Shown piece after piece: positions 42,940 through 46,766 of a DNA stretch of 59,843 nt; within the stretch, counting starts at the first letter, position 1, and the number at the start of each line of letters is the position of its first letter. This DNA is from Gemmatimonadales bacterium. GTDB lineage: Bacteria; Gemmatimonadota; Glassbacteria; GWA2-58-10. The notes beneath the pieces were generated by a model. It saw only the letters and a list, made by a program, of their open reading frames with translations, ran no database searches and had not been told where the DNA came from. The stretch lies in contig JAJRTS010000085.1 of the NCBI GenBank assembly GCA_024278175.1, positions 1-59,843 on the forward strand, written 5' to 3'. Position numbers and translations under genes: made by a program.

Positions 42940-44049
42940 ATGGCTGAATACCTTGTAAAAATACCGGGCCGCGACTACTGCTGGCGGGCCAGGATCGGGA
43001 ACGGCCGCATTGAAACGCTACTGCACGCCGAAGACGAATCAACCCCACTGTGGCTTACCCGGGGTCTGGTCGATATCCAGGTCAACGGGTACGACGGGGT
43101 GCTGCTGACGAAAAAAGACAACAGCGACGAAGAGCTGGCCCGCTGCGAACAGGCCCTGGCCAACTCCGGCACGGTCCGCTGGTGCCCCACTGTCACCACC
43201 AACGACCCGGGGGTGATCCGTGCCTCGCTGAGCGCGATCAGGCGGGCGGTGAACAACGGCTCGCTCACGCGCGTGCAGTGTATCCACACCGAAGCTAATT
43301 TTCTCAGCGCGGAGGAAGGCTACCGCGGCGCGCACATGCCCCGCTACATGACCGACCCCACGCTCGCTGAGTTCGACGGCTGGCAGGAGGCCGCCGGAGG
43401 ACTGATCGGCTATGTGTCGCTGGCCCCGGAGCGCAAGGGTGCGATTGAGTTTATCGAGCAACTGGCCGGCCACGGGACCCTGGTCGCACTGGCCCATCAC
43501 AACGGCAGCCGGGAACAGATCGCTGCGGCCACCGACGCCGGAGCCCGGCTTTCGACCCATCTGTTCAACGGTTGCAGAGGCGAGATCAACCGGCATAACA
43601 ACGTGATCTACGCCCAGTTGGCCGAGGACAGGCTCTGGGCCAGTTTCATCCCCGACGGCCAGCATATCCCCTACCACGTGCTCAAAACCGGTATTCGCGC
43701 CAAGGGATTGGAGCGTGCCGTGTTCACCAGCGACGTGACTTACCTGGGCGGCTACCCGGAGGGCGAATACACCAAGGCCGAGCGCACTGTCGAAATCAGA
43801 AGCGGCGCGGTCTGGATCAAGGGCACGCCCTACCTCAGCGGAGCGTGGAGTACCCTGAGCCAGGGTGTGGAGCGGGCCACCGCCGCCGGGGCGGTTACCC
43901 CGGACGTGGCCCTGCGCCTGGCCTCGAACAATCCCGCCCGGCTGATCGGGATCGAGGACGGCCTGGAAGTGGCCGCCGGAAAACCCGGTCCGTTCGTGCT
44001 GTTCCGCGAGAGCGGCGGCGCGCTGAAACTGGACCAGATAATCTCCTGA
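42940..44049 (+). CDS. NagA-like amidohydrolase, cytosolic
   Basis: A 369-residue protein related to N-acetylglucosamine-6-phosphate deacetylase. The fold markers are LTRGLVDIQVNGY, HTEANF (Glu118, metal ligand), ALAHHNG (His186), THLFNGC (His207) and FTSDVT (Asp265, the catalytic acid/base position). Several motif positions differ from classical NagA (for example HLEGPF, SLGHS, VLVTDA), so the substrate may differ. There is no signal peptide. The ATG follows GGAAGGA. A close paralogue with an export signal starts 27 bases after its stop. Confidence 0.75.
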   Translation: MAEYLVKIPGRDYCWRARIGNGRIETLLHAEDESTPLWLTRGLVDIQVNGYDGVLLTKKDNSDEELARCEQALANSGTVRWCPTVTTNDPGVIRASLSAIRRAVNNGSLTRVQCIHTEANFLSAEEGYRGAHMPRYMTDPTLAEFDGWQEAAGGLIGYVSLAPERKGAIEFIEQLAGHGTLVALAHHNGSREQIAAATDAGARLSTHLFNGCRGEINRHNNVIYAQLAEDRLWASFIPDGQHIPYHVLKTGIRAKGLERAVFTSDVTYLGGYPEGEYTKAERTVEIRSGAVWIKGTPYLSGAWSTLSQGVERATAAGAVTPDVALRLASNNPARLIGIEDGLEVAAGKPGPFVLFRESGGALKLDQIIS

Positions 44050-44076: not shown

Positions 44077-45306
44077 ATGGGCAGGACGATGAACAGGAAA
44101 GATTTTTTCAAGCTGGGCGCGGCCGCCGCGGCAGTCGCCGGGATCGGATCGCCGCGCGAGACGACAGCCTCTCCGGCTACGGAGCAGCCATCGGGTGACG
44201 GCGAATTTCTGGTGAAAATCGCCGGCCGCGACTACTGCTGGAACGCGCTGATCGAAAACGGCAGGCTCACAAGCCTTTCGCGCGCACCGGACACCCACAC
44301 CGGCCTCTGGCTGACCCGCGGCCTGGTGGACATCCAGGTCAACGGTTACGCAGGGATCGAAATCACCACAGAGAATTCCAACCCCGATGACCTGGCTAAA
44401 TGCGAGCAGGCGCTGGTGGCGACCGGGATTGCGCGCTGGTGCCCCACTGTCACCAGCCAGAGCACGGAAGTGATCGAACATTCGCTCTCCGCTATCGACA
44501 AGGCCGTGCGCCAGGGAGCTTTGCGCCGTGTCCAGTGTATCCACATGGAAGCCAACTACCTCAGTCCGGAGGAGGGTTATCGCGGGGCGCACCCATTGCA
44601 GTATCTCACTAATCCGGACAAGGCGGAATTCGAGCGCTGGCAGAAAGCCGCCGGGGGACGGATCGGTTATCTGACAATGGCTCCCGAACTCGAGGGTGGC
44701 CTGGAGTTTGTAAGCTGGCTGGCATCCCAGGGAATTCTGGTATCGCTGGGCCATCACAACGCGGACTACGATACCGTTGTCCGGGCGGCCGACGCCGGAG
44801 CCAGGCTCTCGACCCACCTGTTCAACGGCTGCAAATCCACGCTGAACCGTCACCATAACGTGATCTTCAGCCAGCTTGCCGAAGACCGCCTGTGGGCCAG
44901 CTTCCTGCCCGACGGGCAACATATTCCCTACTACACCCTCAAAACGGGCCTGCGCGCCAAGGGACTGCGACGCGCCGTGTTCACCAGCGACCTGATCAGC
45001 CTGGGCGGCAGTCCCGAGGGCGAGTACACTATCGACGGTCAGGACGTGCTGATCCACGACGGCGCTGCGTTTCTCAAGGGCACGCCATACCTCTACGGCG
45101 CGTGGTCCAACCTGGCCCAGGGTATCGAGCGGGCCACCGCCGCCGGGGTCGTGAGCCCGTCCGAGGCGATCGAACTGGCCTCGACCAATCCCGCCAGGCT
45201 GCTGCGCATGGACGACAGCCTTGAGGTGGAAGTGGGCTCCACGGCTCCGTTCGTGCTCTTCCGCGAGAGAGGCGGCGCACTGCGGCTAGACAATATCATC
45301 GGCTGA
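44077..45306 (+). CDS. NagA-like amidohydrolase with export signal
   Basis: A 409-residue paralogue of the preceding protein, about 40 residues longer at the N-terminus. The extra part, NRKDFFKLGAAAAAVAG, looks like a Tat-type signal but has Arg-Lys in place of Arg-Arg; the following Pro/Ser-rich stretch is a linker. The motifs are the same: LTRGLVDIQVNGY, HMEANY (metal Glu), SLGHHN, THLFNGC, FTSDLI with the Asp kept. Start choice: GGAAGGAC at a normal distance favours 44077; an ATG four codons later is possible. The pair suggests one cytosolic and one periplasmic form of the reaction. Confidence 0.72.
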   Translation: MGRTMNRKDFFKLGAAAAAVAGIGSPRETTASPATEQPSGDGEFLVKIAGRDYCWNALIENGRLTSLSRAPDTHTGLWLTRGLVDIQVNGYAGIEITTENSNPDDLAKCEQALVATGIARWCPTVTSQSTEVIEHSLSAIDKAVRQGALRRVQCIHMEANYLSPEEGYRGAHPLQYLTNPDKAEFERWQKAAGGRIGYLTMAPELEGGLEFVSWLASQGILVSLGHHNADYDTVVRAADAGARLSTHLFNGCKSTLNRHHNVIFSQLAEDRLWASFLPDGQHIPYYTLKTGLRAKGLRRAVFTSDLISLGGSPEGEYTIDGQDVLIHDGAAFLKGTPYLYGAWSNLAQGIERATAAGVVSPSEAIELASTNPARLLRMDDSLEVEVGSTAPFVLFRERGGALRLDNIIG

Positions 45307-45320
45307 AACGGGCAGCGAAG

Positions 45321-45414
45321 AACCGCGGGCGGGCGGCGCGCGGACCTTTCGTCCGCGCGTGCCGGCCGGCACGCCTGTGCTGAAAAAGCACAGGCGCCGC
45401 CCGCTGTCGCGGTT
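45321..45414. repeat. Cloverleaf-like nested inverted repeat element
   Basis: Outer stems pair 45321-45327 with 45408-45414 (7 bp) and 45329-45336 with 45397-45404 (8 bp). Inside, three hairpins are contiguous: 45337-45359 (9 bp, loop CTTTC), 45360-45371 (palindrome TGCCGGCCGGCA) and 45372-45396 (10 bp, loop GAAAA). The four helices meet with no unpaired base at the junction. It fills most of the 137-base gap between two co-directional genes and has no T run. It could act as folded RNA or as extruded DNA. Confidence 0.65.
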
Positions 45415-45443: not shown

Positions 45444-46766
45444 ATGACCGGACAGATCAACCGCAAGGAGTTCCTCGCCCGCTCGCTGGCGATCACCAGC
45501 CTGGGTCTCGCCGCCGATTCGGCTGGAAAGGCGCTTGCCGATCACAGCGACCGCCCGGTTCGGGTGGGGCTGATCGGCTGCGGCAACCGTGGACGGGGGC
45601 TGCTGGGAACGATGCTCACTATTTCAGGCGTACAAGTTCCGGCGCTCTGCGATATCGACCTGGATAATCTGGACGCGGCTTCCAGCGCTCTGACCGATGC
45701 CGGTCGCCCGAAGCCCGAAAGCTACATTAAAGGCCCCGAGGATTTCCGCCGTCTGCTCGAACGCTCCGATCTGGATGCGGTTATTATCGCAACCCCGTGG
45801 CATTGGCACACGCCGATGGCCGTGGCCGCGATGGAGGCCGGCAAGTACGCCGGTGTCGAGGTCCCGGCCGCGATCACGATGGACGAGTGCTGGCAGTTGG
45901 TGGAGACTCACGAGCGCACGGGCGTGCCGTGCATGATGCTGGAAAACTGGAGCTTTCGGCGGGACAATCTGGCCGTGCTGAACATGATCCGCAAGGGCCT
46001 GTTGGGCCAGATAGTCCACTGCCACTGCGCCCACAGCCACGATTGCATCGATCACTGGTTTTTCAGCCCCGTTGACGGTAAGATCACCTGGGGCGGGCAA
46101 TACCTGCTCAGGCGCAACGCGGACCAGTATCCGACACACAGCCTGGGCCCGGTGCTGAGTTGGTTGAATATCGGCTGCGGCGATTATTTCGACTACATGA
46201 CCAGCACGGCCACCCGCTCCAGCGGTATCAACGCCTACTTCAAGCGCAGGTTCGGCGCCGACCATCCCGGCGCCAGGCGCACCTACGCCCAGGGAGACAT
46301 CGTCACCAGCGTGATTCGCACCAGGCTGGGCAGCACAATCGTGATCAACTACGACATGCAGCTTCCCCGCCCCTACGACAACCGCTGGATGGTCCAGGGC
46401 ACGGGTGGAATTTACAACGAGCAGCGCAACTCGGTTTATCTTACCGGCAGAAGCCCGGCTTACCACGAATGGGAGTCTTTCGAACCTTACCAGCGGGAAT
46501 ATGAGCACCGGTGGTGGCGTGAATTGCGGGACAATCCGCCGGAGGCAGGCCACGGGGGCACGGACTATCTGGAACTGAGCAAGTTTTTCGATGCCGTGCG
46601 GAGCAGGGAGCGGACACCGCTCGATGTTTACGACTCGGTGGCGATGAGTGTAATCGTACCGCTCTCCGAGAAATCGATAGCCACCGGCAGTTCACCGGTC
46701 CGCTTCCCTGATTTTACCCGGGGAGCATGGAAGCGGCGGGGCCCCTCATTCGCCATGGATAATTGA
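45444..46766 (+). CDS. Exported GH109-type alpha-N-acetylgalactosaminidase (Gfo/Idh/MocA fold)
   Basis: A 440-residue protein of the NAD-dependent glycosidase family GH109, which uses a transient redox step. After an export-type signal with Arg-Lys (INRKEFLARSLAIT), the Rossmann fold has VGLIGCGNRGRG, then ATPWHWHTPMAVAAMEAGK, EVPAAITMDECWQLV and CMMLENWSF, all as in GH109 enzymes such as that of Elizabethkingia. HCHCAHSHD is the place of catalytic/binding His. GH109 substrates are GalNAc-terminated glycans, including mucin O-glycans. The ATG follows AGGAGC. It is downstream of two NagA-like genes and likely shares their role. Confidence 0.82.
   Translation: MTGQINRKEFLARSLAITSLGLAADSAGKALADHSDRPVRVGLIGCGNRGRGLLGTMLTISGVQVPALCDIDLDNLDAASSALTDAGRPKPESYIKGPEDFRRLLERSDLDAVIIATPWHWHTPMAVAAMEAGKYAGVEVPAAITMDECWQLVETHERTGVPCMMLENWSFRRDNLAVLNMIRKGLLGQIVHCHCAHSHDCIDHWFFSPVDGKITWGGQYLLRRNADQYPTHSLGPVLSWLNIGCGDYFDYMTSTATRSSGINAYFKRRFGADHPGARRTYAQGDIVTSVIRTRLGSTIVINYDMQLPRPYDNRWMVQGTGGIYNEQRNSVYLTGRSPAYHEWESFEPYQREYEHRWWRELRDNPPEAGHGGTDYLELSKFFDAVRSRERTPLDVYDSVAMSVIVPLSEKSIATGSSPVRFPDFTRGAWKRRGPSFAMDN

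Follow-up and report, generated by a model that had tools for sequence, protein, structure and literature searches.

Most palindromic repeats of bacteria form a single hairpin, and it has long been disputed whether their importance lies in the DNA or in the RNA. Some REP and BIME elements have been described as targets of IHF, Pol I binding is likewise counted among their functions, and a role in the protection or termination of mRNA has been proposed for many REPs. REP and BIME elements are short intergenic palindromes situated mostly 3′ of coding regions, between tandem or convergent genes; they can fold into hairpins or cruciforms, and some are described as gyrase targets (PMC3733652, PMC2817692). 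Classical REPs reach more than 100 copies per genome (PMC2817692), and their frequent G-T pairs were taken by Di Nocera et al. as a sign of RNA function (PMC3733652). Each is a single hairpin of 20–40 bp that carries a GTAG or CGTC tag, and they are often paired or clustered. REPIN/RAYT-mobilised elements are likewise structured DNA repeats that are non-autonomous and presumably depend on mobilisation in trans. The LIMP repeats of the Lobosphaera mitochondrial genome, lineage-specific palindromes discussed as DNA cruciforms or RNA processing sites (PMC4524435), are single long hairpins composed of 5-nt units.

The structure analysed here lies in a 59,843-nt contig of a Gemmatimonadales bacterium (GCA_024278175.1, contig JAJRTS010000085.1, forward strand), the whole of which is called the window; its genome is labelled G000. 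As the initial annotation had stated, it occupies a 137-nt gap between co-directional genes (stop 45306, GH109 start 45444), and 22 nt separate the upstream stop codon from the trunk. The elements of the locus are as follows.

44077–45306, + strand: ORF of the upstream gene, an NagA-like amidohydrolase (Pfam Amidohydro_1, 3.7e-07; NCBIfam nagA, 2.6e-52, under the curated cut-off)
45321–45327, + strand: left half of an outer 7-bp stem, AACCGCG, private to the window copy
45329–45338, + strand: left arm of the trunk, GCGGGCGGCG, the outer limit of the homology common to the copies
45339–45357, + strand: hairpin 1, CGCGGAC-CTTTC-GTCCGCG, with junction-proximal GCGC pairs that are almost invariant in the family
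45358–45373, + strand: hairpin 2, CGTGCCGGCCGGCACG, the arm most variable in length and sequence, still paired
45374–45394, + strand: hairpin 3, CCTGTGC-TGAAAAA-GCACAGG
45395–45404, + strand: right arm of the trunk, CGCCGCCCGC, forming 10 bp with 45329–45338
45408–45414, + strand: right half of the outer 7-bp stem, CGCGGTT, private to the window copy
45444–46766, + strand: ORF of the downstream gene, a GH109 or Gfo-Idh-MocA-type protein (Pfam Glyco_hydro_109_C, 1e-49)

The fold bears out the architecture first proposed for this site, in which two outer stems (here the 7-bp stem and the 10-bp trunk) enclose three contiguous hairpins around a four-way junction without an unpaired base. The hairpin lengths originally given, 9, 4 and 10 bp, are the exception: three hairpins are present, and in the minimum-energy fold they measure 8, 5 and 9 bp, a one-pair difference that arises because adjacent arms can trade a base pair. 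Positions 45321–45414 fold with a predicted energy of −77.9 kcal/mol, compared to −52.3 ± 3.8 for shuffled sequences (z = −6.84; 0/200 shuffles as good). A cloverleaf detector restricted to Watson-Crick pairs found one such structure across the 59.8 kb of the window; five first-order resamplings that kept dinucleotide composition gave none. The outer 7-bp stem is missing from the orthologous copy and from the other copies, and the family unit consists of the trunk and the three hairpins. NagA-like genes stand in tandem at this locus (42940–44049 and 44077–45306, both under the curated nagA cut-off), the second with an N-terminal extension resembling a signal sequence.

A covariance model (R1) was searched against Glassbacteria genomes and a phylum draw of 395 genomes. 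The Glassbacteria family, to which the window belongs, is represented by six genomes, G000–G005, among which G001 belongs to the same genus as the window's genome and G005 is CSMAG_1147. The model recovered about 8 copies in G000, where further copies were first shown by BLAST and a pattern scan, 11 in G001, 14 in G002 and at least 11 in G005; it found none in G003 or G004. The initial annotation had named a single copy lacking covarying relatives as grounds for refutation; the genome and its relatives instead contain multiple copies with compensatory changes, distributed over four genomes. The other 391 sampled genomes of the phylum yielded no copy under strict filters, by which weak relatives could be missed. 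Among the matches listed from a pattern scan that took in other phyla (L111–L190), the detector fired only in Glassbacteria contigs, and no match to the cloverleaf was obtained in phages, plasmids or viral contigs. The cloverleaf family is probably a non-autonomous dispersed DNA repeat specific to the uncultured Glassbacteria, with copies of about 75–100 bp.

Three candidates were left out of the family: G000:C50 and G023:C51, which overlap called genes, and L004, which has no cloverleaf fold. The three-hairpin junction is present in 43 of 44 copies, with no unpaired junction base in 20, one to four in another 20, and 8–11 in three whose hairpin 2 is imperfect; the remaining copy, G002:C186, matches the model without a third hairpin. 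The trunk is a GC-rich inverted repeat of 9–16 bp across the family and occurs in variants with both sides changed (GGCGGCG/CGCCGCC, GGCCGGCG/CGCCGGCC and GGCGGCAC/GTGCCGCC). Hairpin 2 ranges from about 4 to 15 bp, and its sequences are unrelated among copies. Homology between flanks is absent outside the trunk in G000 and G001; in G002 it extends over only some 10 further bases. At G000:C47 and G000:C106 the AT-rich flanks seem partly alike, as if duplicated with their surroundings. ARAGORN calls the cloverleaf of G000:C7 (L064:3039-3130) a tRNA-Tyr, a false positive of a kind that could enter annotations, and annotators should be warned accordingly.

The family resembles REP and BIME elements in being a dispersed, intergenic palindromic repeat, short, near gene 3′ ends and present in multiple copies per genome. 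It differs from REPs in having a trunk and three hairpins instead of a single stem-loop of 20–40 bp, in its 8–14 copies per genome, in the near absence of G-T pairs, and in lacking a tag, since no conserved unpaired GTAG or CGTC tetranucleotide lies beside the trunk in the aligned copies. With LIMPs it shares a dispersed, lineage-specific distribution but not the fold, as LIMPs form no four-way junction. A literature search, in which most subscription journals were beyond reach, found no such repeat in Glassbacteria and no REP with such a fold; no earlier description of a four-way-junction architecture among such repeats was found.

Every accepted family copy is intergenic, and copies occur in both orientations relative to genes. 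At confident tandem sites the copy is nearer the upstream stop codon than the next start in 16 of 16 cases (13 independent; p = 2.4e-4), and in most tandem pairs it lies 14–64 nt from the stop. This bias would equally follow if insertions close to promoters or ribosome-binding sites had been weeded out. Viewed from the window alone, a folded RNA that controls GH109, as the initial annotation had offered as one option, could be imagined as a riboswitch-like element acting in cis on translation or transcription, and the cloverleaf does lie about 40 nt 5′ of the GH109 start in both G000 and G001. Other copies, however, adjoin unrelated genes (aldo/keto reductase, GH28, URO-D, ABC and Gfo/Idh), and riboswitch or GH109-specific control is rejected on this ground. 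The occurrence of both orientations, the rarity of G-U pairs described below, and the NagA–GH109 pair of G005, whose spacer of about 48 nt contains no cloverleaf, also argue against it. A search of Rfam returned nothing above the gathering score, which likewise counts against a riboswitch. The dispersed distribution already refutes a GH109 cis-RNA as a general explanation, and even for this locus it is hardly credible.

Pairing statistics bear on whether the structure is kept as DNA or as RNA. They were taken from 32 copies of G000–G002, with letters read outward from the junction; G-U pairs were barred from the fold by which the junction was located, but the pair count itself is of raw letters. 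Stem positions are Watson-Crick in 816 of 830 cases, with two G-T and no A-C combinations, compared to means of 540 Watson-Crick, 48 G-T and 45 A-C when the 3′ letters were re-dealt. In the trunk (pairs T1–T9) 284 of 288 positions are Watson-Crick despite GC, CG and AT exchanges. By comparison, 30 tRNAs of the same genome contain 30 G-U in 627 pairs (4.8%; Fisher p ~1.5e-9). The near-exclusive Watson-Crick pairing indicates that pairing is kept on both strands, as DNA would demand. That the arms stay complementary while their sequences change suggests that the shape matters in DNA and not in RNA.

An RNA-level 3′-UTR element, a transcribed cloverleaf that protects or terminates the upstream mRNA, would account for the location 14–64 nt past stop codons and for a very stable RNA fold, and, with either strand able to form the fold, a flip would be neutral. 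The 2 G-U in 830 pairs are difficult to reconcile with it, given the 4.8% in tRNAs, and the argument from frequent G-T pairs made for REPs (Di Nocera et al., PMC3733652) fails here, as that sign of RNA function is absent from the family. Nor does the window copy look like a plain terminator, as had been noted from the outset: no U-tract follows the trunk, and the search for intrinsic terminators found none on the + strand, its one partial match being on the − strand inside the cloverleaf. An RNA role of this kind is accordingly considered improbable.

For seven copies of G000 an orthologue occupies the same position in G001, and the proteins encoded next to them are 75–88% identical. At these sites the stems are identical at 451 of 470 positions (96%), the loops at 79 of 138 (57%), and the 60-nt flanks at 517 of 704 aligned columns (73%). 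Two sites, C47/C10 and C7/C81, show symmetric loss of pairs from hairpin 2, and C25/C3 shows exchange of a C-G pair for T-A. The flanks of G000:C47 and G001:C10 are unflipped (same-side scores 215 and 48, versus 28 and 30 when swapped), and the cloverleaf between them aligns best inverted (128.5 flipped versus 63.5 unflipped). The C7/C81 cloverleaf is probably also inverted in place, at a site where only the right flank is conserved. Recombination between the arms of the trunk, or template switching from one to the other, would be expected to produce such inversion.

In G001 the NagA orthologue is cut short, its breakpoint falling on the cloverleaf's left edge (L034, G001:C27, just before 4083). 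The site in G000 that corresponds to G001:C22 was considered as an empty site and ruled out, since one trunk arm is still there; the remnant makes it look like a deletion. Together, the breakpoint and the lone arm make the cloverleaf edges look deletion-prone. The genes neighbouring G001:C33 are multicopy, so that a comparison of its site carries no information.

In G005, a cloverleaf with different arm sequences forms the core of a MITE of about 200 bp, which occupies about 30 places; many of these are contig ends. Complete copies end in a 14-bp TIR (CCCGGATTATTCAT...ATGAATAATCCGGG), TA adjoins the TIR in most copies as assessed by eye, and some copies have lost the cloverleaf. The G005 form is thus like known TIR MITEs, from which the bare copies of G000–G002 differ: these show no TIR beyond the trunk, homology stopping at or near it, and no excess of flanking direct repeats that would mark a target-site duplication. 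In G000 and G003 the TIR CCCGGATTATTCAT encloses structured interiors of other kinds, and MITE ends and cloverleaf are therefore separable modules. A second repeat family, MITEs of 92–175 bp with structured interiors that are present in G003 and G005 as well, includes the following G000 copies.

G000:C64:16315-16477 (L289): MITE with TIR CCCGGATTATTCAT, mostly beside TA
G000:C92:811-985 (L309): MITE with TIR CCCGGATTATTCAT, mostly beside TA
G000:C107:13204-13377 (L313): MITE with TIR CCCGGATTATTCAT, mostly beside TA
G000:C74:84214-84305 (L298): MITE with TIR CCCGGATTATTCAT, mostly beside TA

The search revealed no autonomous element for these MITEs and no dedicated transposase for the cloverleaf. 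Unlike REPINs, the cloverleaf has no GTAG motif, and model R1 found no copy beside the RAYT-like or IS200-like loci (Y1_Tnp; L227–L236), where short contigs could hide one. IS200-like TnpA genes or fragments are present at G000:C62, C18, C28, C32 and C44, several at contig ends, which suggests that an IS200/IS605-type element was recently active in the window's genome.

The cloverleaf is best placed among dispersed palindromic DNA elements of the REP-like or MITE-like kind, though its four-way-junction fold is unusual for them; it is not a riboswitch or a terminator. This assignment follows from the Watson-Crick-only pairing, the conservation of stems, the inversions, the lack of shared flanks, and the positions between unrelated genes just past stop codons. 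Of the options entertained at the start, it is the REP-like or transposon-derived cruciform that has been strengthened, by dispersed copies without common flanks, arms that pair by Watson-Crick rules only, inversion in place and a MITE core in one genome. Most likely, the repeat is non-autonomous and old, and has been retained at the 3′ ends of genes for a presumed function as a DNA structure. The low copy numbers (8–14), the lack of a target-site duplication at bare copies and the lack of a linked transposase count against this assignment.

The alternative of a selfish relic, an old transposon by-product that is functionless now and whose arms are kept paired by template-switching correction during replication, agrees on the DNA-level identity and differs only on function. 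The clade-restricted distribution, the MITE form in G005 and the NagA–GH109 pair there without a cloverleaf are consistent with it, as are the in-place inversions and edge deletions, which suggest template-switch or cruciform-cleavage activity. Correction of arms, however, preserves pairing and not sequence, and it leaves unexplained why stem sequences evolve several times slower than flanks (96% versus 73% in neighbouring intergenic DNA). That orthologous copies keep their stems speaks for selection on DNA structure, and a relic of this kind is less likely than not.

For a conserved DNA structure, a simple model would start from the GC-rich trunk around three abutting hairpins, an arrangement that allows either strand to fold into a four-way junction. 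The duplex could extrude as a branched cruciform, favoured by transcription-driven supercoiling at gene 3′ ends. The trunk may represent the ends of the mobile unit, and a protein that binds junctions or hairpins might recognise its invariant pairs together with the GCGC of hairpin 1. Copies would then be kept at 3′ ends for topology or nucleoid binding, as REP and BIME elements are for gyrase and IHF. A role in topology or protein binding at gene 3′ ends would be the most economical function, although in absolute terms an unlikely one. A bolder and quite unlikely version has the branched cruciform mimic a Holliday junction: selection would act on its extruded form at gene 3′ ends, where it would serve as a topology sensor or a docking site for junction proteins, and its arms would flip in place by junction resolution.

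In the long dispute over palindromic repeats, the cloverleaf family provides a clean case: almost all changed pairs are Watson-Crick, G-T intermediates are scarce, stems are kept while loops drift, and copies can invert in place. With it, the native function of branched cruciform DNA becomes a testable question.
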